Below are positions 16,498 to 30,751 of a DNA stretch of 64,000 nt, piece after piece. The translations under genes were made by a program, and so were the position numbers. Location: contig OX485804.1 in NCBI GenBank assembly GCA_950295325.1, positions 32,486,001 to 32,550,000 on the forward strand, given 5' to 3'. Positions within the stretch are counted from its first letter, which is position 1. The number at the start of each line of letters is the position of its first letter. The notes under the pieces were generated by a model. The model saw only the letters and a list, made by a program, of their open reading frames with translations, was not told where the DNA came from and did no database searches. Origin of the DNA: Polytrichum commune. Lineage: Eukaryota > Streptophyta > Polytrichopsida > Polytrichales > Polytrichaceae.

Positions 16498-18239
16498 TAC
16501 AATAGAGTCTCCCTAATTTGAGCATCAAAATGTCTTCTTCTTCATCTGAATGCACACAAAAATGTTTACTCAATGACACCCAAAAGTGATCCTAACTGGT
16601 TTGAAACAAGACTTGTCCTGTCAAAAATTGCATCTTGCTTACCATTGCTTCCTAAATATTATCAAACTCAAGAAATAAACTCCATTATTTTCTTACAGTT
16701 TTGTTGGCCCTGAATAGAGCAAAATGACTTCCTTCCCTGGTTTTTCTTTATGTCACTAACATAAATGTTGGAAGTAGCAAATATAGGAGATTCCTTCAAA
16801 AAACTTGAATTGATCCCCACTTTTGGTGACTATATGGTTAACTCTATTTTGGTATAAGATTTCTAGGTGTTGACTTTGGGTATACTATAGGAAGATAGTT
16901 GGATAATTATCTAAAGTTCCAAAAGTTGGGTTGGCACTTTTTGACACTTTTTTTGTGATTTTTTTAGTTTTATTTTTGTTTTTACTTTTCCCATTTCAAC
17001 TTGTTCACCAGTATCAAATCAAAAGGTAGTAGGTGTTCACAATGTACATCCCATGGAGGCTAGAGCACTCCACCAACCCTATAGAATCAACTAGCTTGAA
17101 ACCATCTCGATGCACTCTCAATCTCATTAGCCTTTGGGCTTCATGGATTTTTAAATCAATTTCATTTCATCTCATCAAAATAAATTCTAAGATTTATTAT
17201 ACAAGCCCTCTCCATTAGGTGTGCACAATCCATGTGGGAAATATAAACTTGAGAGGTGAAGCCCCGGTAGTCCTCTTGTATGTATTTGTTCATAACAACT
17301 TCAAATTAGAAATTTCTTGTTGGAGGTGGTACTTTAGTTTGATTGTTCAAATTTCCTTAGTTGAACACAACTCCCAAACGAGATTTCTTCTTTGCACAAT
17401 CAAGCTCCAAAAATGAGTTTGTAATAAATTTTCCCTTAAAACCTCATGTACACCTCTTGAAAATGCTTGCGAAATTTTGTTCATATCTATTGCAAGACAT
17501 TCAAATCACAAAATTGTTTTCGGAGCTGATAGTTTGTTTGATATCCCAACTTTTCTTGGTTGGACACAAGTCCAAACAAATGCTTGTTCTATGTATGATT
17601 GAGGTCCAAAAATTTGTTGAGGACATAGACAAAATACTTGGTACTTGGTCTTGCAACTTCATGTCAACCCATATTCTCTGTGATGACTTAAGATGACCTT
17701 GAATATATTGTGAACTCCTTGTGCCTTTAACATCTTGTAATTAACTGCCATCACTAAATAGAAAGTGTGGGTTGGGAGTTCTATCATGTTGGCACAGAGG
17801 AGAGAACGGACAACAAATTCGGAAGAATGATGCAACAACAAGCCCAGCTCAGATCTTGCTTTGAATGTTTGATGTTATGGTTCATAGACCAAAAGATACT
17901 CTCTTAATTTATGCCATTAGTGCGTGTTCTCTGGCTATGGGATCTAGACGTAGGGATCAGGATTTGTCTGAGGGGGGATCCGTGGGTTGCGAACTCGCAC
18001 AACACTTGGATTCACGGTTATTAATCATATGTCTGTCTCCGAAGGAGATCTCCCTATATCAGAAGTAGCAGCAGCAGAAACAATACAAAATGGAGATAGA
18101 CCGGTCGGGTTAGAGCTTGGCCAAGATCCCAATGTTTCGTGAGGAGATGGTTGCTACAACTAGAGGTCACCAAAGAGCTGGACCCAAAGGAGAGAAGAAA
18201 AGAAGATAAGATCTAGACCTAGGAGATGAAGGAGAAAGA
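16498..18239. other. AT-rich intergenic, weak internal duplication
   Basis: No gene recognised. Two stretches near 17345-17430 and 17540-17625 resemble each other (TTAGTTGAACACAACTCC versus TTGGTTGGACACAAGTCC, then AAAAAT and a TTTGT(A/T) end). This may be a decayed retrotransposon or an old local duplication. The sequence turns A/C-rich near 18.24 kb. Confidence 0.4.
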
Positions 18240-18352
18240 ATAGCATCAACATCAACATGCACCATCAACACTAGGGTTTCACCCTTATTCATAACATGGG
18301 TGCTCATAAGCACCATTGCCTTGTGTGCTTACACACACCACAATATTCACCC

Positions 18353-18590
18353 ATCAATGCTAACACCCATAATCTACCCACCAAGCTACCATCCTCCAAT
18401 GCCAAGACCCACAATTTACCCACTAAGTCATCATCTCTCAACCCCAACTCCAACAAAATACCCACAACATTGTCACCTCTCAACCTCAACTCCAACAAAA
18501 TACACACAACAATGCCACCCATCAATGCCAACCCACCAACTCAAATGCCACTCCTCAATACTAACCTATACAAAACATCCCTCAAGCTAT
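18353..18590 (+). repeat. ~42 bp tandem repeats in LINE leader
   Basis: About five or six imperfect units of ~42 bp, each with a CAATGC or CAACC start and a core such as AACTCCAACAAAATAC followed by CCACAACA. The array lies near the 5' edge of the LINE, where monomer arrays often serve as promoters in other LINEs; that function is only inference here. Confidence 0.7.
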
Positions 18591-19575
18591 CACCAACGGA
18601 CGTCCCCACGATCCAAAAGTACTCCACACGCAATATCATCGCCATCGCCACCCACACAACACAAAACCACACACACAAAGGTAAGCAAAACCACTTGTAC
18701 CTACCACCAAACAAATACCCACACCAAAAAACATAAAAAATGCAACTACACATTATTTATAAATTTACCTCCAAAAATGCAATGCCGCCGCTACTCGCCT
18801 CTCCACGCGGCCATATGTCAGCACCACCCATGCCAAATCTCCACAAAAACACACACAAGACAACCAAAATGTTGCCAACCCACCCTAAGAACAGAAAATG
18901 CACAACCCAAATCCACACAACGCCAAAACCCCAACCTTACCCAACAACTACCATGATGACCCCAACAAAGAGAAATTGGCCTCAACCAGCTAACACTCCC
19001 AAAACGAGCAAACCACCAGTCCACAAATCTAAACAATACAGATCACAGCAAACAAAAATACAAACCCCGCCATCAAATCGACCAAACCAGCAAACACCGC
19101 CAGCCACCTGCACCCCCGAATGCCACAAACCAGGATCCCCACCTTAAGCTTTCACAACAAATCCACCTTCAAATACCCCCGCACCTTACATCCCTCATCA
19201 CTCAACTTTCCTCCTCCCCTCACTCAAACATGGCATTCAACAATGTTGAATCCCTCACCACAAAACAGATCCACCGAACACCAGGAGAGACCAGTCAAAC
19301 ATCGGCATGGGAACCGAGAGTGAACAAGAGCACCAACACAAGCAGGTAGGCAGGAGAACTCACGGCACCCAGGTAGAGTAGTGCCGAATGGTCGACGAGG
19401 CGTGGCACCGAGAAGATGGTGAGGAGCAGCGCCGACAGAGCGACTCAGAGCGGCAAAGAGGCCAGGGGAGCAACACGGCACTAGGCCGGGCCCGGGACCA
19501 AGGGCCGAGAACTACAGGTGGCTGCGACTAGCAATAGGAGCATATGCAGAAGGAGGGCTCTATTGCAAAACTACA

Positions 19576-21581
19576 GTGACAAAGAGGAAGAAGATACAAC
19601 CCCCCCCAATGGCTAGCCAACCAACTCCCTTAAAGGGACAAAACACCCCATCTCATGATTTTGACATAGACATGCAGCTCGAAGATGTCTCACCCGAACA
19701 TGGGGGGAATTCCTTCCAAATCTCAACGTCACATGACGAGTACGTAGTTGCCCCCAATCAAATTGCCACATCGTTAACTCGACTAGACACCATCGACCTA
19801 GCTGAAACAACACTCTCATCGGACCCACACAAGAGCCCTAGGAAGAAGACCACAATCGACATCCAAAGCACGAAACGGAGAAGGAGTGAAGTAGGAATAC
19901 ATACAACTAACTCTGGCACAAGCAATTTCCAACATATGCAGACCAAAGAAGCAATTCTAAGCATAGACATTGTTTCACAAATGTGGCTAGGATTCTCAAT
20001 ACACGAAGTCGTTACTTCACAAAGGGATAAGGGGATCATCCGCGAACACCGCACCAATGAAGAATTTGCAAGACTAGGGACCCCCGCAAGGGAAGTCATA
20101 GATTTCAAGACATTCCGACTAGCATTCCCGCGGGTTCCACAAATTTGCTACCCAAGTGAGATGCCGGATGCGGACCCTGGCAACCACCTCCACTTCACAC
20201 AAATCCCAAGACAAGAGATAGTCGACCCCACAACCGGTCTATCCGAAGGCTTCCACATTACCATCCACTTCGACTATGGCTTCAAGAGCATGAGTAGGCA
20301 AGAAGCAAGAGGAACATACCTCGACCCGACAAATGAGCATATTCCTCAGCTCAATATACTCAAACCCAATCAACATTGGAATCAACGCCGTCACAAAAAA
20401 TTGGACGGGGTTTATCAAGATACACCTCCAAAACCCACAACAAGATGATATAGCACCCTTTAGTGGCCATAGAGCATTCGTCATGGAAATGGAGGATATG
20501 GAGAAGGTGATAGGCAAAGTAGAAAATGGATACGAACTAGTCACTAAGGCCTGCAACCTCTGATTGCACCTCAAGGGAGCTTCCGTCACAAACATGCGTT
20601 CACTATCTTCGAAGCACTAATACAAGAGAGCTACTACTCCGGACACCAACATGAGTTCATGGGCCTTACCAAACCGGAACTAGATAAAAATTTTGCATTT
20701 TTCACTCTCACCTCGGAAGAAGAAAGAGATAGGGTATTCAAGGATGGATTCGCCTACAACAACGAGAGACTTCAAGTTAGCATTACATGCGATCGCGGTA
20801 CCGGCAATCCATCAGGACTCCGAATTAACACAACACTCGTTGTCAATAACCTCCCACAACACAAGATGCAAACTGCCATCACAAGGGCCATCAAACAAAC
20901 TTTGGAGCGGACAATATAGTCGGCATTAGCTTCGGCAACACTAACCAAGCCAACACCAATAAACAAGGGGGGTGGTGCCATATCCAATGCCTCAACACCG
21001 CGGTCTACACGGAATGGCTCTACAAGTCTACCTACATCCTTGGAAGATGCATCAACTTCATCCCTCATTGCGGGAGCATTGACAGCACGGACCCCAACAA
21101 AACGGCGATCCGGTTAGCACAAGCCCCCGCAAGAGAAGCCATCGTTGACAAAATCCAAGCTATAGGCAATGCCACCAACCCCAACCCACTCGTCACCGAA
21201 AAACATCTCACAAAAACCATGAAAGCGTTTGAAGACAAGCTAGATGAGAAATTTGGTACGCTTACTACCACAATAAATAACCACACGGATCGAAGACACG
21301 AGGTAACTACGGCAACAATCACTCACCACACCACCAATCTCCAAGTGATTATCGGAACGATTGCCCACGAATTCCAACAATCAAACATCCATATGCAAGG
21401 CATAATCAATGGCCTCTCTGCCGCCGCCCTGAAAATCTTGCAAAGAACCACCCCGCCACCGATACCCCAAGGACTCCACACAACCGCCCCACCTCTCCCA
21501 CTCCCACTTCAAGCCCCCCCCCCCCCCCTCGGGCTTCCATGGCAATCCACCAATGCACCACCAAGGACCTCCCACATTTAA
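19576..21581 (+). pseudogene. LINE ORF1-like nucleic-acid-binding protein, frameshifted
   Basis: Reading continues through three frames: 19576 to ~20340, ~20333 to 20563 (TGA), ~20564 to 20919, then ~20913 to 21581. The shifts occur without loss of sense, so one ancestral ORF of roughly 660 codons is likely. The N-terminal part has a Lys/Arg-rich patch (KRRRSEVG). The middle-to-late part has an RRM-like pattern: TTLVVNNLP resembles RNP2, and GGWCHIQCLN about 50 residues later resembles RNP1. The last third contains a helical stretch (KAFEDKLDEKF) that could form a coiled coil, then a Pro-rich tail (PPLPLPLQAPPPP). This fits ORF1 proteins of LINEs that bind element RNA. The first ATG could lie elsewhere. 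The RRM assignment is a pattern judgement. Confidence 0.6.
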
Positions 21582-22291
21582 TGAATAGTGCCCACATAGC
21601 ATACCACAAATAGCCCCTCTTCCTTATACATTATGTTTTGTCTTTACTACATAATAAAGAGTCCAAACCGTTGGCCTTGTTTTCTTACATGATTCCCACC
21701 TACGTGCATACAATCTACCACCACTTACCCCCCCCCCACCAAACACATACTCACACACGGGTAGATCACTCTAAGGCATTTTTGTGCACCACGTGCGGCT
21801 AGGGGTTTTTTGTTTTGGGGCTATTTACCTTCAAAGGTTGAATTCAAGCCTCCCTATAATTACTTAAATTTCAAAAATGACCCATTTGTTTGCACCCTTC
21901 CATTACTTATATTGTCCAAGTCATTGCAATTTTTTGTACTCTATATTCCTTTTAAGTAATAAATGGGCGTGGAGAAGACAACCCCAATGACGGCGCGTTC
22001 CTTTTTCATCCATTTTTGGACAGACAGAAATCCCAATTATCATTCATCCCCGTGAGTCTTAAACCCATTTACATACCATACTAAACATACCTTCTAGGAT
22101 CCTTATCTTCAGCCCCTATATTAATTTTACAAAAAATAATGGCCCACGTTTTATGTCCATCTAACTTACTTATAATGGGATTGTCTACATTTAATGGCCC
22201 CTTCATTATTTGGAATTTCTTTATAATTTTTGTTTCAAATGATTTTAATCCTCTCTATATTATGTTGCACGTCGTTTTTAAAATGCACTAA
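21582..22291. other. Inter-ORF spacer of the LINE
   Basis: About 700 bp between ORF1 and ORF2 with no readable ORF. It contains a poly(C) run near 21727-21737 and T-rich segments unlike the surrounding A/C-rich coding DNA. A small insertion or a genuine spacer would both fit. Confidence 0.4.
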
Positions 22292-23400
22292 GTGATCTAC
22301 CCATGTACTTACATCACAAAGACTTACCACACAAAATCCCCACTAAACCATCCTATAAACCCACCCTTAAAATACATACTCCTAATACTTGGCATCACAC
22401 TCCTAATACCAAAATCCCCTCCCGATAACAACCAAGCAAACCATATATATAAAAACCTACTTACACCCCCCAACGAAACCAACTCCATAACCTCACAAAG
22501 TGCAATGCTAACCATCACACAAAAGGAAACACTAAACCCCCACAATACGGGTACATTACCATCCACCCCCTTAAACCCACAAACACCCCCAATACCCTAC
22601 CTCCCACTTTGGCCACAAATCCAATACTTAGGCAATGCCCATGTACACCGCACCAATGCCACCTCAATCGCATTTTACATAATAAAGCACACTCACCTCA
22701 AGCACCCAACATACCACAAAGACACCTCATATATAATTGACCTCTAAACGCTTATACTACTTGGAGGAAACATACAACCCAGCCCCGGACCAACCACACA
22801 CATCCTCAATATCCTCCCAAAAGACTACACAAAGAGTAAAAAACAATATTTCATAGCCCACACCCTAAACCTAAAACCCCAATACCAACACCTAGAAGAG
22901 CTCTTTGCCCCATACCTAGCCCAACCCACCTCAACTAACCAACATCCAATCCTACCACATCTCCAAAAGCATAGTCTCCTCCTATCAAGATATCCCCCAC
23001 GTTACCAAATATATGCCCCCATAATCGCCATTAGCCCAATGCCCCACCAATGTAACGACAAACTCTCTAGGCATCTCAACCCAAGGTGCCTCACCATACC
23101 ACAAAGACTCCAAAATAGTGAACCACACCAATACACGGGACACCCCTACCTCTCGCAAACACTTATCAAACAAACATCACAAGTCCCCTCAATAACCCCC
23201 ATACACAACCACATCAACAACCAAATCACACAAGGAACCCCCGTCACACAACAAAGCCTTGCCCAACAAGTCCCCATTATACCTACACAATTGCTCCAAA
23301 ACCTAGCCAAGCGAACCCACCAGATCATTGGCTTCACATTGACCCAGAATAACACACATAACCAACCCCCCCAACCCCCCCAACCACAATATACAAACAC
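22292..23400 (+). pseudogene. LINE ORF2 N-terminal region with 2A-like motif
   Basis: One frame is open from 22292 to 23710 except for a single TAA at 22745-22747. Immediately after it, 22751-22792 encodes LILLGGNIQPSPGP. This resembles the hydrophobic-then-D(V/I)ExNPGP signature seen before the APE domain of many LINEs, where it can act as a 2A-type ribosome-skipping peptide. Here Asp, Glu and Asn of the canonical core are replaced by Asn, Gln and Ser, so activity is unlikely. The remainder is Pro/Gln/Asn/His-rich with no recognised domain. The true ORF2 start is uncertain. Confidence 0.5.
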
Positions 23401-24207
23401 CCACAATACCAACACACACATCATCACATGGAATACAGGGCACATTAGCTCTAGCCTCCCAGGCATCATCAAACTCACGAACACCCTACACAAAAAACCC
23501 AATATCATTATTGTACAAGAAACTAAACTAAACAAAAACAAATCTACCACATACATTGATAATAGGTTCCCAGACTACAAGATAATATACAACAACTCGA
23601 ATACTACAGATTTAAGTAGAAATCGCCAATACAACACAAATGAGCCCCCACACGGAGGGGTGATGGCCATGATTCACAAAAAAAATATATATATACCCCT
23701 GGAAATATAACCAAAATCCCCACCCCAACCAACATTTCCCCCTACCTACAATTACTCAAAATAGCTAACAAACCACTAACACCAATCCTTAGTTTGAACC
23801 TATATATGCCATTGCACACACACGACTTAAACCTCATACCTAAAATCATAACCCAAATCGACATCCTAACAAAACACCACCATGCATACAAAACCATACT
23901 AGCAAGTGACTTCAACAGAGATATCTAACTGCAAGGACACACCCACGAAGGCACAATTCAAGCCCCCACTAGAGAAGACAAGGAATGGGCAAGCTATATG
24001 CAAACTCTCAACCTCTATCCAATCCAAAATACCGAAACCCTATCCCGACAAGGTGGACACAACTATACATTCACCAATCTCGTAGACGGATTCTATACCA
24101 ACACACCACAACACCCAAACATAATATGCACAACCCTACTCCACCAAAATCAAAACTCGGACCATTACCCCGTTAGCCTAGATCCACACAACATACCCCA
24201 AGAATAA
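23401..24207 (+). pseudogene. LINE APE-type endonuclease domain (ORF2)
   Basis: This domain would nick target DNA to prime reverse transcription. The exonuclease-endonuclease-phosphatase family motifs appear in order: THIITWNTGHI (Asn of motif I), NIIIVQETKL (catalytic Glu), HGGVMAMIHK, a NLYMP segment, ILASDFNRDI (Asp/Asn of the GDFN-like motif), and NSDHYPVS at 24154-24177 (terminal Asp-His). The frame changes near 23700, and an in-frame TAA follows DFNRDI near 23928, so this copy cannot make an intact enzyme. Confidence 0.85.
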
Positions 24208-25850
24208 CATATCCCATACCACCAGAATAAATTCAAAAAACACTCACTCAATTCCAAGAAACCACCAATCTTGACATACAAGCACTCATCCAAGAACTAC
24301 GCACCCTACACCTCCATCAAACAAATTGGGAAGAAGCCCAAAGAAAATTCCAAGACATAATTAACACGCTAAGTACGTGCGTCGAGGAAACATGCCTCAA
24401 CACACAAATCATCCATGCACTCCCACACAAAGCTAGCCAACAAGGAGGCTTCCTACCACGCAAACAACAAAAATTATGGAAACACCACCTTAAGATCTAC
24501 CATAGCATCCGAAATGCAGTCCAAATTACACACTCTCTACCACGTGCAAGCTGGCCAAACCACCCAAACATCCAACAAATCTACACACTAAAAAACACAA
24601 CCATCCCCCATACCCCGGATAACGACACAACGGTAAAAAAATGGATCGATGAACTCGCAACCATAGGACGAACAACCAAAATGGAAGCCCATAAAGTTAC
24701 CACTAAACAAACAACCATTAATTGCAAAAAAAAACCATTACAAGATATAGGCTCATACTAAACACCAAACCCAAAAGTATACATTAAAAAATATTCAAAC
24801 CAACCACAAATACACCCTTAGACTGCCTCAGAGATATAGGAGACAACATAATCACAAACCCAATAGATGTTAACCAAGAAATTACACAAACACAACGTAA
24901 CTCCTTTAACAGAAAAACTTCTTTATGCGATGACCCCACCGACCACCCCACAATATGTCACTGCGCAATCCGTAAATACCCATGGCTTGACCATAAAGGA
25001 TTCATCATCGAAAGACGAGGCCCCCATAATGCCAACTATCATAAAACTTCACCCGAGAAGTGTATGATAATAGTTCTAAGCGACTAGCCAAGGGGAAAAC
25101 CCTGGGACCTGACAATATCCCTAATGAAATTCTCAAAGCACTACACCCCGCCTTCCACGATATGTTGTTTTTATTTTTCTAACGATGCTACCACCAAAAA
25201 AACATACCCCAGTACTGGAAACATAATAAAACACTACTCCTTGAAAAAAAAGGCGACCCACAAATGCTCACTAACTATAGACCTATAGCCTTGGCTAATA
25301 CTATATACAAACTATATACTAGCACACTCACAACCCTACTTACAAGCTATGGGGAAAAACAAAAAATCATCCACCTTAGCCAAGAAGGCTTCTGGCCACA
25401 AAGAAACACAACCAGACAAATTCAAATGATAATAGCAGCACTAGAAGACGCACGCTTAATCAATAACGACATAAACCTTACCTACATAGACTTTAGAAAC
25501 GCCTTTGGATTCATAGATCACGCAAGACTCCTTGCACTAATGAAGGACCTTGGATACCCCCGAGATGCCGTTGAATTAATAAGCAATATTTACACAAGCT
25601 CAACCACATCCTTCCATGGTAACCACTTTGGAACAACCCCACCCATACAAATTAATAAAGGCACCATCCAAGGCGATACCCTAAGCCCATATCTCTTTAT
25701 CATCTTCCTAGATCCACTCCTCCGATGGTTAGAAAAAGACAACATAGGTTACCATAGCATATGCGGACGACCTTGCCATCCTCACCGATAACACAACAAA
25801 TATCCAACACAAATACACAAACTCCAAAAATACTCATAATGGCCGCACCT
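24208..25850 (+). pseudogene. LINE reverse transcriptase domain (ORF2)
   Basis: RNA-directed DNA polymerase of the retrotransposon. Upstream linker residues (24.25-24.76 kb) read as an alpha-helical LINE linker. RT motifs follow in order: GPDNIPNEILK near 25.1 kb, NYRPIALANTIYKLYT, EGFWPQRNTTRQI, LTYIDFRNAFGFIDH (first catalytic Asp at 25489-25491), KGTIQGDTLSPYLF, and YADDLAILTDN (catalytic Asp pair, YADD at 25760-25771). The YADD is one frame away from the preceding 175-codon ORF (25264-25791), so a small indel separates motif B from the active site. In-frame stops also lie near 25.18 kb. Fingers, palm and motif order are those of non-LTR RTs. Confidence 0.92.
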
Positions 25851-28180
25851 AGACCTTAACCTCTCTAAGTGCGCAATCACAAGATGCCCGAACAAACCTA
25901 ACCTAAAACCTACTACCTTCAAAGCATACATACAAGCCCAATGCATTCACTTCAAAAACAAACTCTTCCCTACCCTCACACAAAATGAACCATACACATA
26001 TCTCGGTATAAACCTAGTCCCCTCACCAAAATGGAGCATCCAAAAAAACATTATCATAGAAAAAGCCAAAAAACAGAGCAAATTATTAATGACATCCCCC
26101 CTACGATTAAGCCAAAAATACATATTTTAAATTCAATAATGAAACCAGGATTAGCATACACCTACTATGCAATCCCATTTTCTAAGCCAGACATAAAGAA
26201 ACTAGACAATATTCTTAGTAAGTTAACTAAGGAAATATGTAACCTACCCAATAGCACAACAAACATACTAACCCACCTCCCCAATGTGGACTTTGACATT
26301 AATACCACCTCCATCCTCCCCGACTATATCAACTGCATTGGTAAGCAACTACTAAATGCCCTCAACGATCAAGGCCAGCTAGGTCAAGTCTACCAAGGCC
26401 TTACCAAATATATAACAACAAAATATGAAGGATCCTACCATCTCCCACACCTAAATTATCAAACATGTGCAAGATCACCTGTATCCCGCACACTCTATCT
26501 ACTCGAAAGGGAATATGAAATCCATGTACACACCTCCATCAAAAACTTTCCGATTAAACAATCAGCAATAGAGCTTGCATGGACACAAACCGCAGAATAC
26601 ACCCTCTTCTCCCCAGACCAAAAACAAGCTGCTAAAAGGTACCTCAACAAACTACACACGTATAATATCACTACCCTCAACCAAATCCAAAATCCCGACA
26701 CACATGAAATACTATCCCCTAAAGAATTCAAACAAAAATTCAAGGCCGCCCCAAAGCTAATCAAAGAAGCCTTGGCCCAAGCCCAACTACTATTCCCACA
26801 TAGCTCACCAACAATCCACAACCCTCCCCCACAACAAATACCACCCACAATACATAATCCGCCCACAAATACCATCAACCAAGTAGACCCCACGATGGGA
26901 AAACCAATACAAGCCATAAAAATGCCAAAACCACAACATATAAAGATAAATGGGGAGCAAAAGCCGTAAAGCAACACTACCTATGTCAATGGGATACCCA
27001 CCCAAACAGCTCAACAAAATGAGTAGAAACATCACGACTCCTCCACCATGATAATATCACATTAGACCACTCCATATTTGTGCTCCACAAATTTCTACAA
27101 AACCAACACAAACTCAACACCCTAGCCACCTATAACTCAAGTATTAAACTTCTCACAATCTAAAGATCAAAGATTCATTCGTCCACCCATCATCGCCCCC
27201 AACCTTACACTAAACACAAAAGAATGCAACCCAAATAAAGATATCACTGCCACCAAACTCATCATACAAATACGAGGAATAGAAGCCAACATATACGACC
27301 AAAATGAAGCATACGTCCTAACCATGCCAATCACAAGACTACAATGGCTGTGGGAACGATATAACCAAAACCAAACGCACCCCATGATACACTTCTTTAA
27401 CCCCCCGCCCCAAGACTTCGCCACCGAAGTCTTATGGCTGACCCAAAGATATGTCACAATTCTCCCAAAAAGGAAACCAAAAAAACATAACCCAAACAAC
27501 AACCACCAAACCCTACACCCCTCCACCCTACAGACCCTAATCGCAACCTACAACATCACACACTCATACTACTACTCACCCCTCACATGCCCAATAACAC
27601 TCACACAATATAACTCCCCACAAAACAAAGATATAACTTTTGGATCAACCGGTCTCGCTCACGCATCAAAATGGGGAGGCAATGGCCTAGCCCATCCCCC
27701 AAACCTTAAAATTGTGTTGACCTCAATCCATTGGGCCCGAATGGCAACCCAAACATACCACAATGCCACAACCATCATCGTAATCAACCATAAAGAGAGC
27801 ACCCTCCCCATTACCCATGCAGAAATGTACATAATAACCATCCCCCTAACACCATACAATACAACCCCACACTGGAATGGCCAAAATATCTACACCAATT
27901 ATAAAACCAATACACTACCATAATCAAAATCCACAAGCATGGTTATACATCAGTCAACCCTCAAATACCCAATGCACTCATATCCAACATAACTAATCTA
28001 TACAATATTGAAATTAACAACAACCCAACCCAAACTACCCCTCATATATATATATATATATAAATACACCAATGCATGGTAGCAAGCCCCACAATACAAC
28101 CACTTGGAAACCAACTACTCAGCACACCCCCTACCAACAAAACTATAAAATATCCATCCCCTTAAATTCAAGCCTCAACA
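25851..28180 (+). pseudogene. LINE ORF2 region between RT and RNase H
   Basis: Long open segments (26031-26969, 27324-27923) with the same A/C-rich composition encode the RT thumb and an extended connector, e.g. MKPGLAYTYYAIPFSKPD and later helical, Gln-rich stretches. Frame changes occur near 26.97 and 27.92 kb, and a (TA)n microsatellite sits at 28043-28062. I recognise no further catalytic domain. The connector, about 750 codons long, is large for a LINE. Confidence 0.55.
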
Positions 28181-28181
28181 A

Positions 28182-28799
28182 TGCATATACACTGATGGCT
28201 CATTCATACCCCCCGATGAACATGGTATAGGCAACACAGCCGGATCTTGTGTCTACTCCCCCGCCAACAACATTAGGATTGCGGAGAGACTCCCAGGCCT
28301 TCAAAACATCCTCAAAGTTGAACTGAATGCCATCCTAATAACAATCCAAAGTACACAATACCACACGCGAGATTTCCACATCTTTACAGACAACCTTAAT
28401 AATATATACTTGATAAACAACCACATACGACATCCATCATCCCAACACAACCCGGACAAACTACTCATAGTCGCCATAGTCAACTACATAACATGGTCCA
28501 CGCATAAAATCAATATTCAAAAAGTCAGAGCACATACAAGCATAATAGGCAATGAAATAGCAGATCAATTAGCAAATGATGGAGCCCTCCTAAACAAACC
28601 CACCAACACACCCAAAATACATACGGCCCATACCACACCATACTGGCTCAATGGGGTACCAACAGGTTCCCACACGGGGGCCATACGAAACCTACAAACA
28701 TATATCAACAAAGAACATAGAAACCAAGAATTGAGGCTAGCACAATCCAAATTCACATACAATTGGGCAATTCACAATGGACATCCAATGACCAAATAA
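28182..28799 (+). pseudogene. LINE RNase H domain (ORF2)
   Basis: RNase H1-type fold that would remove element RNA from the cDNA hybrid. All four acidic catalytic positions are visible: YTDGSFIP (Asp), KVELNAILI (Glu), FHIFTDNLNNI (Asp), and GNEIADQLAND (Asp), with a KVRAHTSIIGNE lead-in carrying the usual His. The frame is open across the whole domain (28182-28799). It lies between the RT and the zinc motif, the usual place for LINE RNase H. Confidence 0.88.
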
Positions 28800-29632
28800 A
28801 CCACAAACTCTCCAATCAATTTTGGAAAAACCCCGGGACCACAGATGCCCAAATCACACAAACTCTAAAATTTCGTTATGCCCAATACATGGGTAACCAC
28901 TGTAAACATTTATTTTGGCCTAACCTATATCCGAACCCAAATTGTACACTATGCCCCAACAATACCATAGATACATGGCCGCACTTACTATCTACATGTT
29001 CGAACCCACACATAAAGGGTCTACGAATAGCACGCCATAATAAAGCACTACACCAAATCACACACATGCTTCAATCAAACAAACACACAAGATGCTATAC
29101 ACTCGTAAATGCAAGTCACCAAAACTCTAGACCACAAGACAACATTGTCCCACAATGGTTATTTCAGTGCACCTGCCCCACCACATCATGCACATGCTTA
29201 GCTAGGTTGAGACCAGACATACTATGCGTACTTGGTGCTCCCACAAACAGCCAACCTCCCTTAAGGCACACCCCATCACACACCATACAATTCATTGAAT
29301 TCACATATTGTCACGACAAATTCCCAGATAATGCATGCAATGAAAAAGCCGCTAAACACAACCCACTCATAGACACACTTAAAAGAGCCGGCTGGCAAGT
29401 CAACCCTCTCATCACCATTACAGTAAGCGTTAGAGGGGCTATCCACGAGCAACCAATTAACAAGCTAGAAAATTTAAAAATACCCAAAACCGAGGTAAAA
29501 ACACTTATGAAACGCATACACCAAATTGCCATCAAATACCTCACATACCTAATACTAAACAGAAGAAAACTAGACAAGAAACAACCCCCAGTAGACCCCC
29601 CCCATAGACCACCTCTCCTAAGATCCAATTAG
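28763..29632 (+). pseudogene. LINE C-terminal CCHC and restriction-like endonuclease region
   Basis: One 289-codon open frame ending in TAG at 29630-29632. It begins with FRYAQYMGNHC and a zinc motif CTLCPNNTIDTWPHLLSTC (C-x2-C-x9-H-x4-C) near 28950-29000. Further on, LARLRPDILCV (Asp at 29216-29218), QFIEFTYCHD (Glu at 29297-29299) and EKAAKHNPLIDTL (Lys residues near 29345 and 29354) reproduce the order PD ... hydrophobic-D/E-x-T ... K-x3-K-Y/H that characterises R2-type restriction-like endonucleases. A later segment (SVRGAIHEQ) also resembles the tail of that domain. The motif comparison is from knowledge of the family; no alignment was run. If correct, the element had two unrelated endonucleases. 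Confidence 0.7.
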
Positions 29633-29700
29633 ACACCCCCCCCCCCCATACTCCCATGTACCCCCATAGACAATAGAAACTACACCCTCTTGAAAATACA

Positions 29701-29813
29701 GGAGCCCACCTTCCGAGAGGAAGGAAATACTCCTACGGTGACACTTGGTCAAACATGAACACAGTAGAAAGGAACGGGCTCCCATTAATGTCGGAGTACA
29801 ATTAAAACTCCGA
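29701..29813 (+). other. Foldable 3' UTR of the LINE
   Basis: Nested complementary segments: GGAGCCC (29701-29707) pairs with GGGCTCC (29776-29782). Inside, CCTTCC (29709-29714) pairs with GGAAGG (29719-29724) across a GAGA tetraloop. Just downstream TCGGAGT (29791-29797) pairs with ACTCCGA (29807-29813). Such 3' structures serve as RT recognition elements in R2-like and other stringent LINEs; this function is inferred. Confidence 0.6.
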
Positions 29814-29830
29814 TGTTACTTTTTATTTAT

Positions 29831-30751
29831 TTACTCTATCATATTCTAGCAAGTATGTAACATGATTAATTGAAAGCTTGACAAAATATGTTTACATTTT
29901 CTAAATTAATATGGTCTATTTTTAGACTTTGTTGTGCCAGACCGGCTAGCAACCTACGGTACTTACCTTATGTAGTTAAATGGTAGTCCGCTCTTTTTAT
30001 GTTTAATATGCTTGTGCAAAACAACAATACACAATATAGAAATTATAAAAATCAAAATAAAACACACCTCAAGGAGGCCATTTTGATATTGTTCTTTTTG
30101 TTCTTTTTTGTTTGTTTTGTTCTAACATTGTATGATTTGCGAATGAACATTCAAAATCTAGTTGTTCAACAACCTTAACAATATGGTCCATCTTGTTCAT
30201 TGTTGGGTCATTAGTTGAAGGGGTACCATGAATATATAGGCTTCAATTTGCAGTGGCTAATCAAGGGGGAGGATTAAGATAGGTAAGTCATCCTTTGTGT
30301 ATCATATCCTTATGGAAAGAGGTGAAGTCTTAGTAGGGGTAGAGTTTTTTAAAAGTGAGTATTTTCATGTGCCGTTGTAAATACATTAATCTCGAAGGTG
30401 GAGGTGAAGTGTTAGCCAATATCTTTGATAACTATAATCATGAGTATTTCTTTCATTAAGTAGTAGGTACTTGACTTCTACGGTATACTCCTTAAAAATA
30501 TCATTGTTTCTTGGGGGAGAGAGAGAAAGAGAGGGGACAATTATTACTTACTTTGGTTTTGTTACATTTATTTGGTTTTAATTGGATTGCAAATTTTTGT
30601 GTAAGCTTGCTTCTCTCATGGAGGATTTTTTTTAGTATCGGTAAGAATTTACACATGAGAAAGAATCTCTTGCCTTCCTTTGGATGTTTCTCGTCAATTA
30701 GAATGTAGATGTCAGGATTTTTATATTATAAATATTTTTGGTTGCAGCTAA
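29831..30751. other. AT-rich intergenic
   Basis: No gene or RNA recognised between the LINE and the next small element. Only short frames lacking family features. Confidence 0.6.

Follow-up and report, generated by a model that had tools for sequence, protein, structure and literature searches.

The results of this analysis indicate that a 64,000-nt stretch of the Polytrichum commune genome (G000:C2:32486001-32550000; hereafter the window; host genome of 408 Mb in 64 contigs) contains a decayed, dead copy of a non-long terminal repeat (non-LTR) retrotransposon, or long interspersed element (LINE), whose relatives moved recently. Based on these relatives, we consider it likely (probability of ca. 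0.8) that the element represents a land-plant non-LTR family in which the polyprotein of the second open reading frame (ORF2) carries an apurinic/apyrimidinic endonuclease-type domain (APE) and an R2-type restriction-like endonuclease (RLE) around a reverse transcriptase (RT), together with a PCIF1-like domain and an RNase H, and that the family works like Dualen/RandI elements. An earlier note, made from the sequence alone, had placed a land-plant LINE with APE, RNase H and R2-type RLE at 23401-29632. One family with all of these was found, with the RLE only probable. The motifs which the note had named are all present, in order, on the forward strand; they are broken over three frames and do not form a single ORF. 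The interval holds the APE-to-RLE motifs, while the true element is larger, with an ORF1 remnant from 19458, an ORF2 start at 21581 and a tail reaching ca. 29834. This extent, ORF1, a 2A-like motif, the PCIF1-like domain and a 3' untranslated region (UTR) RNA go beyond what the note had listed.

Relatives and domain order of the family

A search of the host genome with a 256-aa stretch covering the CCHC knuckle and the RLE gave 148 scored matches (6680 rough candidates) with 61-100% identity. At ≥70% identity there were 13 further matches, 12 of them with stops; many of the more distant ones have long open frames. Three full-length relatives (L010, L012 and L014, on C5, C1 and C4) are 98.9-99.35% identical over ca. 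11.86 kb. All of them begin at an ATGAGC, whose ATG encodes the initial Met of C5 ORF1; full-length copies therefore share almost no 5' UTR.

Two ORF2 frames were read whole (2,372 and 2,422 aa), and nine more copies were read in part or whole. A second family (family B, the window copy belonging to family A) was met through the Pfam profile PF12237: three of the four loci fetched had frames of 2,663-2,757 aa with the same architecture, two of these frames running off the end of the sequence retrieved, and at the fourth a single frame covered an RT part and a PCIF1-like part. In the RLE, where two of its copies (L043 and L044) are near-identical, family B shares 41-44% identity with family A. 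In both families the open ORF2 frames run APE, RT, PCIF1-like domain, RNase H, CCHC and RLE; in the C5 copy (P0001) these lie at residues 287-535, 841-1270, 1632-1720, 1897-2034 and, for CCHC and RLE together, ca. 2150-2370, with the 2A-like motif at ca. 76-84. The window copy shows the order APE, RT, RNase H, CCHC and C-terminal RLE, spread over three frames with many stops. Since the same order recurs in copies elsewhere in the genome, a motif set stitched together from unrelated elements of the window was ruled out. Profile searches of viral contigs (with the family alignments and an R2 RT) and of prokaryote contigs found no relative.

Residues were surveyed in 34 copies, 20 of which were hand-picked from the list of relatives (62-67% identity to the window copy; mostly high-ranking and without stops), their residues not being visible at picking. 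From all protein alignments, L002, L003 and L005-L008 were dropped as decayed, and L004 was used in alignment A2 only; the protein alignments also exclude L012, which has a stop and is nearly the same as L010, and L014, likewise a near-identical copy. L019 (stops) was dropped from the RLE and RT alignments and L018 (a stop) from the APE and RT alignments, and L011, L016 and L019, whose APE matched in pieces, were left out of the APE alignments.

APE, RT and RNase H

The APE of the relatives lies N-terminal to the RT and matches Pfam PF03372/PF14529. In the window the APE motifs TWN, QET, SDFN and SDHYP were located in this domain, which Pfam detected weakly in the first fragment (0.067). An APE was found in 26 of the 34 copies; the other eight had no match in the fetched stretch (truncation or shift). 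All six catalytic-type residues are kept in 24 of these 26, one of the remaining two being partly covered and the other having Tyr for Glu. The APE and RLE residue sets are both kept within one copy in 22/34. The APE profile gave 0 hits against PDB at 0.01.

Single-frame pieces of the window matched RVT_1 (E=4.9e-18) and RNase_H (E=2.9e-14), so that these motifs, like the ordered RLE set treated below, exceed chance. With an RT profile built from seven copies, the matches in PDB at E≤0.001 were five distinct sequences, all of R2 type (E 6.3e-37 to 1.3e-21). Thirteen RT sequences, drawn from the family, plant L1 elements of the same genome and R2, were placed in an unrooted maximum-likelihood tree. 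Each of these three sets formed a separate, strongly supported group (100/100 against L1); with these sets alone the tree places the family only coarsely. The separation from the three L1s (L038, L039 and L041) ruled out a plant L1 with an unusual tail, and the RT thus lies outside the plant L1 clade. RT identity was 0.22-0.23 to plant L1 and 0.23-0.28 to R2. The RNase H residues D, E, D, H and D are invariant in 11/11 rows, the window included, and PF00075 matched two family A copies at E 1.3e-14 and 2e-16. The His makes this RNase H distinct from the Arg-type, archaeal-like RNase H of plant L1.

Dualen reportedly has, according to its original report, a cysteine (OTU-like) protease as a feature of the element. 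No Pfam hit to such a protease was obtained in the ORF2s or the ORF1 pieces scanned, in keeping with the earlier note, which had seen none. This bears on whether the family is a true vertical member of Dualen/RandI dating from the green-algal ancestor, which would have lost the protease and gained the PCIF1-like domain, a history that we slightly favour. Excerpts of the published descriptions give Dualen/RandI the same dual endonucleases and RNase H (PMC3636483, PMC4640811), and an RT about equally far from plant L1 and R2 would fit a place between the RLE and APE groups. The protease missing from the Pfam scans speaks against it, as do the 2A-like motif and the PCIF1-like domain, which go without mention in those excerpts. 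Membership is therefore unproven, Dualen having been compared by published descriptions only. An independent fusion, in which APE and RNase H were added to an R2-type RLE LINE within the plant lineage, or the other way round, appears rather unlikely: the exclusive match of the RT to R2-type proteins, the lack of a protease by Pfam, the extra PCIF1-like domain and a CxCx4CxC loop would suit it, yet the same domain set already exists in a green-lineage group (the domain order of Dualen being assumed), which makes a second origin less likely.

The restriction-like endonuclease

Published landmarks of the R2Bm RLE are Asp996, Asp1009 and Lys1026 (PMC10499050, excerpt). Further landmarks of such endonucleases are a CX2-3CX7-8HX4C knuckle, an RH situated in the first helix, KX2KY, and a GXW that follows the fourth strand (PMC5678591, excerpt). 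The family has, C-terminal to the RT and the knuckle, an RH, a PD, an E 27 residues on and a K 16 residues further within KxxKY; the E-to-K spacing of 16 compares with 17 in R2Bm. In the window, the string RPD ... IEFTYCHD ... EKAAKH lies between 29033 and 29359, and the copy reads KxxKH where its relatives read KxxKY. The P, E, K, K and Y and the His of RH are kept in 34/34 copies, the Arg of RH in 32/34, and D, E and K together in 31/34. The knuckle was covered in 14 of the 34 copies and kept in each of these 14. The CxCx4CxC loop, conserved like the catalytic residues, is possibly an extra metal site.

The ordered set RH ... PD ... D/E ... KxxKY occurred in 31/200,000 and 19/200,000 shuffles of two family members. 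With the relaxed KxxK[Y/H] ending it occurred once in the six frames of the 64-kb window, at the RLE site. The ordered set was absent when six-frame translations of 10 other loci (71,124 residues) were scanned, and likewise from three plant L1 frames, which end soon after their knuckle. The patterns were set after the sequence had been seen and were taken from the published landmarks. Chance resemblance of the motif set was rejected on the shuffles together with the six-frame test.

The earlier note had proposed a comparison of the C-terminal region with RLE profiles, and its outcome was partial. The profile of families A and B together matched only two PDB chains up to E=10 (8gh6 and 8ibw, which we take to be R2Bm), and with an earlier profile of family A alone, R2Bm-type chains (E 1.7-1.8) ranked below chance hits to kinase and complement proteins. 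DUF2043 matched near the knuckle in 4/10 RLE rows below its cut-off (best 4.1e-5; 17.6 bits against a cut-off of 25).

Several observations weigh against the main reading, that of a dual-endonuclease family. The match to the R2Bm-type chains had an E of 0.6, which is not significant, and covered the CCHC to the RH only; the sole nuclease-type Pfam match at the RLE was HSDR_N (E 0.13 at the C-terminus of the window copy; 1/10 members); and a single-sequence AlphaFold model of the window RLE was useless (pLDDT 36.9). The knuckle reads C-x2-C-x9-H-x4-C against the published x7-8, the D-to-E spacing is 27 against 13 in R2Bm, and the GXW expected past the fourth strand was not seen in alignment A7, where a GW pair lies earlier. 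The RLE Asp is missing in 3/34 copies (L016, L018 and L048), and a stop falls within the RLE region in 5/34. These counts favour well-kept copies, since selection of the 34 went mostly by length of open frame or by rank, and near-identical copies are among them (L010/L012/L014; L043/L044). Two of the three full-length copies have no target duplication longer than 6 bp (by script), and that of the third lies within a repeated target. Finally, the median ratios of nonsynonymous to synonymous substitution rates (dN/dS; Nei-Gojobori) are rough because dS is near saturation (mean pS 0.56-0.69; 6/21 RT pairs saturated): they were 0.274 for the N-terminus with the 2A-like motif, 0.157 for the APE, 0.119 for the stretch before the RT, 0.049 for the RT, 0.131 for the PCIF1-like domain, 0.084 for the RNase H, 0.095 for CCHC-RLE and 0.111 for the RLE core.

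By these ratios, both APE and RLE show purifying selection. APE LINEs usually have dispersed sites and target duplications of 9-17 bp, as this family has, and together with the three copies without the RLE Asp this would agree with an RLE that is present and no longer needed, the APE making both cuts; we regard this as improbable, as the median dN/dS of the RLE core is lower than that of the APE, both values being rough. Least probable of all is an APE-only LINE whose C-terminal region serves structure or RNA binding and looks like an RLE only by coincidence: the lack of a significant profile or fold match, the knuckle spacing off by one and the GXW not seen would suit it, and against it stand an ordered motif set placed after the CCHC (ca. 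1e-4 by chance), its conservation into the 41-44% identical family B, the near-equal E-to-K spacing and a widened profile that finds only R2Bm-type chains. An RLE is thus likely to be present, a call made on the ordered motifs and their conservation and not on a significant profile hit.

PCIF1-like domain

All 10 family A members examined, the window included, matched PF12237 at E≤1 (best 3.9e-8); the score shown for one of them was 30.8 bits, just below the cut-off of 31.1, and two family B ORF2s scored above it (47.1 and 41.6 bits). A search of the genome with this profile gave 150 scored places (697 candidates), all above the cut-off, with a best score of 55.6 bits. Many of these places lie in long frames, and the four fetched (4/4) sit in retroelements of the same kind. 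The profile widened to families A and B had a sole PDB hit up to E=10, which was PCIF1 itself (6irx, E 0.88, over a stretch ending at FGSxG), whereas the family A profile alone gave chance hits only. The catalytic motif of PCIF1 is NPPF. By eye, this position reads AFPTD, AFPKD, AHPTD, AHPPN or AHPHN in the family, and because the motif is replaced, the domain is probably not active as such.

ORF1, ORF2 start and 2A-like motif

ORF1 of the C5 copy has ca. 1,290 aa, and no Pfam domain exceeded the cut-off in the ORF1 pieces scanned. The ORF1 stop and the ORF2 ATG overlap as ATGNNTAG in 5/5 copies with the ORF1 end covered (the window, C5, C1 and two on C4). No overlap was seen in the stretches of L013, L015, L017 and L018, which start further down, and two other places in the window also passed a loose stop/ATG filter.

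2A (StopGo) peptides follow the consensus (V/I)ExNPGP, preceded by D or N (PMC12846837, excerpt). D[IV]xxNPGP was found in 13/14 copies read, with the consensus E kept in some and Q, H or K in many. GD[IV]xxNPGP precedes the APE in 10/11 family A copies, the eleventh (L018) reading GDIHPNSGP, and the motif is present in all three family B copies whose stretch covers the site. The first NPGP lies 170 codons past the ORF2 ATG in the C5 and C1 copies. Motif and APE share one open frame in L009, L010 and L042-L044, while the frame is broken between them in some copies. Tandem motifs ca. 440-460 bp apart precede the APE in L010, L012, L014, L016 and L017.

3' end and insertion pattern

The 3' UTR is predicted to fold stably in 5/5 sequences (z of -5.0 to -9.1), and 11 of 28 predicted pairs change on both sides in an alignment of 14. 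L004 and the window copy were not part of this alignment, nor were truncated or near-identical copies; L013, L018 and L011 entered it shortened at the 5' side. Rfam gave 0 hits in window 17500-30500. The tail consists of TTTA-like repeats in the window and of (TTTTC)n in relatives.

Ten 3'-end copies were examined, namely those of 17 pattern matches without an entry in the CCHC-RLE list of relatives. In seven of the ten, the truncation point is marked by an exact target duplication of 9-17 bp, the 9-bp one (L025) being weak by length alone. L032 has no duplication at the junction; the sole repeat found lay away from it and was not counted. In L028 and L031 the element reaches, or nearly reaches, the edge of the fetched stretch, so that their 5' ends are not really assessable. 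Dispersed truncated copies with duplications fit target-primed reverse transcription (TPRT) at dispersed sites. L027, L029, L030, L032 and L033 hold only the last ca. 60-125 bp of the element, 4/5 with target duplications, and are either retrotransposed 3' ends or pieces resembling short interspersed elements.

The copy in the window

The features of the window copy are listed in Table 1. The full-length C5 copy first matched the window from 18289 (nucleotide) and 18273 (protein), and the 3' end was fixed by comparing 3' UTRs and tails across copies. A 552-bp insertion within the ORF2 leader, flanked by a repeat of only 2 bp (AC; by script), is probably a small DNA transposon.

Table 1. Features of the LINE copy in the window (MFE, minimum free energy)
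Feature	Position	Strand	Remarks
LINE copy, approximate extent	18270..29834	+	ca. 11.6 kb, holds nested insertion; 5' limit uncertain
ORF1 remnant	19458..21579	+	tblastn of C5 ORF1: 59-74% identity in 6/8 stretches, 30% and 49% in the others
ATGAATAG, ORF2 start codon overlapping ORF1 stop	21581..21588	+	
ORF2 remnant	21581..29632	+	stops and frameshifts; open frames of 2,372-2,757 aa in five other copies
Nested insertion, foreign to the LINE	21755..22306	+	16-bp terminal inverted repeats (inverted repeat I6, 94%), within ORF2 leader
Degenerate 2A (StopGo)-like motif GNIQPSPGP	22766..22792	+	relatives GD[IV]xxNPGP
APE domain, two frames	23420..24180	+	tblastn; N, E, Y, D/N, D, D/H residues kept
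RT including thumb	25060..26375	+	tblastn, PF00078; YADD at ca. 25760-25771
PCIF1 (cap adenosine methyltransferase)-like domain	27282..27803	+	tblastn; FGSxG kept; between RT and RNase H
RNase H, D-E-D-H-D residues	28152..28613	+	PF00075, 2.9e-14; alignment A10
CCHC zinc knuckle, C-x2-C-x9-H-x4-C	28943..28999	+	alignment A7
Probable RLE: RH, RPD, E, KxxK(H/Y)	29033..29584	+	
CxCx4CxC loop inside RLE	29168..29197	+	34/34 copies examined
Structured 3' UTR RNA, then T-rich tail	29701..29823	+	MFE -44.1 kcal/mol, z -6.0

A 42-bp tandem repeat of about two copies lies at window 18417-18519, near the start of the ORF1 region. Between ca. 18000 and 30000 the sense strand is A/C-rich, with G near 10% across much of ORF2, and the same bias is present in the relatives whose composition was printed. 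The skewed span agrees with the extent given for the copy.

As a further observation on the host genome, a LEAFY domain of land-plant type was found at three loci (C1:40571425-40572195, C1:62298386-62299612 and C7:8635861-8637757). A stop is present in two of the six domain matches, perhaps because introns were read through. For one locus the best PDB match was 4bhk (FLORICAULA/LEAFY homolog 1, 196.5 bits; presumably from the moss Physcomitrium), ahead of 2vy1 (protein LEAFY, 181.1 bits; presumably from Arabidopsis), pointing to a land plant, perhaps a moss, as host.

Proposed replication

From these features we propose that the element RNA is bicistronic, translation of ORF2 being begun at the AUG that overlaps the ORF1 stop, as ATGNNTAG suggests. 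The 2A-like StopGo site ca. 170 codons into ORF2 (C5 and C1 copies) would then free a leader peptide from the enzyme polyprotein. The polyprotein may recognise the 3' UTR, whose structure and covariation were described above, beside the U-rich tail, would nick dispersed targets and, judging from the copies, would prime reverse transcription on the nick by TPRT. Cutting of the two strands is probably divided between the two nucleases, and the RNase H would clear the RNA template. Reverse transcription would frequently stop early, leaving the 5'-truncated copies with 9-17 bp duplications that were observed. We give about even odds to a broader reading, that of a high-copy, recently mobile land-plant LINE clade in which two unrelated endonucleases are selected, the polyprotein is split by StopGo (sometimes in tandem), and a captured, catalytically altered PCIF1-type fold has been fixed between RT and RNase H, perhaps holding the capped 5' end of the RNA during integration.

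Comparison with known systems

The following comparisons draw on excerpts of the papers cited. Plant L1 elements of the same genome (L038, L039 and L041) share APE, RT, a zinc knuckle (PF13966) and dispersed matches with the family, while their RT forms a separate clade and no RLE set occurs in the L1 stretches retrieved, whose ends lie shortly past the knuckle. The RNase H of plant L1 is archaeal-like and of Arg type (PMC4640811), whereas that of the family has a His. With R2, the family shares RT similarity (E 6e-37), a CCHC followed by RH, PD, E and KxxKY, and a structured 3' UTR. To our knowledge, APE, RNase H and ORF1 are absent from R2. R2 inserts in 28S rDNA (PMC10499050). The present family possesses ORF1 and APE, sits at dispersed sites flanked by target duplications, and has larger RLE loops with CxCx4CxC; it therefore falls outside the R2 clade.

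The 2A-like motif is common to the family and to 2A-bearing non-LTR elements, the family being a plant element whose motif is sometimes tandem. We know of no RLE in the latter (L1Tc and others). Trypanosome L1Tc and other non-LTR elements carry such a motif (PMC4981915). A 2026 survey reports, in its excerpt, no evidence that plant viruses use StopGo, which works in plants (PMC12846837); this makes a 2A-like site that occurs naturally in a plant element interesting. With PCIF1 itself, the family has the PF12237 match in common and differs at the altered NPPF position. Among the matches listed in open-licence PMC literature, there was no report of a PCIF1-bearing LINE, of a land-plant dual-endonuclease LINE or of a moss RandI.

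Dualen/RandI elements have both an APE and a PD-(D/E)XK-like endonuclease (PMC3636483) and an RNase H in the same LINE (PMC4640811), the combination found here if the probable RLE is counted. They occur in Chlamydomonas and other core-Reinhardtinia (PMC8226300), are also mentioned (as Dualen) in a 2025 cryptomonad paper (PMC12747079), and appear in a 2013 table as RandI under green algae, with only L1 and RTE under flowering plants (PMC3747384). The moss family differs in being from a land plant and in showing no cysteine protease, in its (TTTTC)n tail as against the (ATT)n and (CTATTT)n of green-algal RandI (PMC3747384, Table 3), and, when set against Dualen descriptions rather than Dualen itself, in its 2A-like motif before the APE and its PCIF1-like domain. 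As it works like Dualen and the cysteine protease was not found, we file it as a variant of the rare Dualen-like kind. Dualen-type elements have been cited as a link in the view that APE LINEs arose by the APE replacing the RLE (PMC4640811), and a family with many long-frame copies allows asking which nuclease makes which cut.

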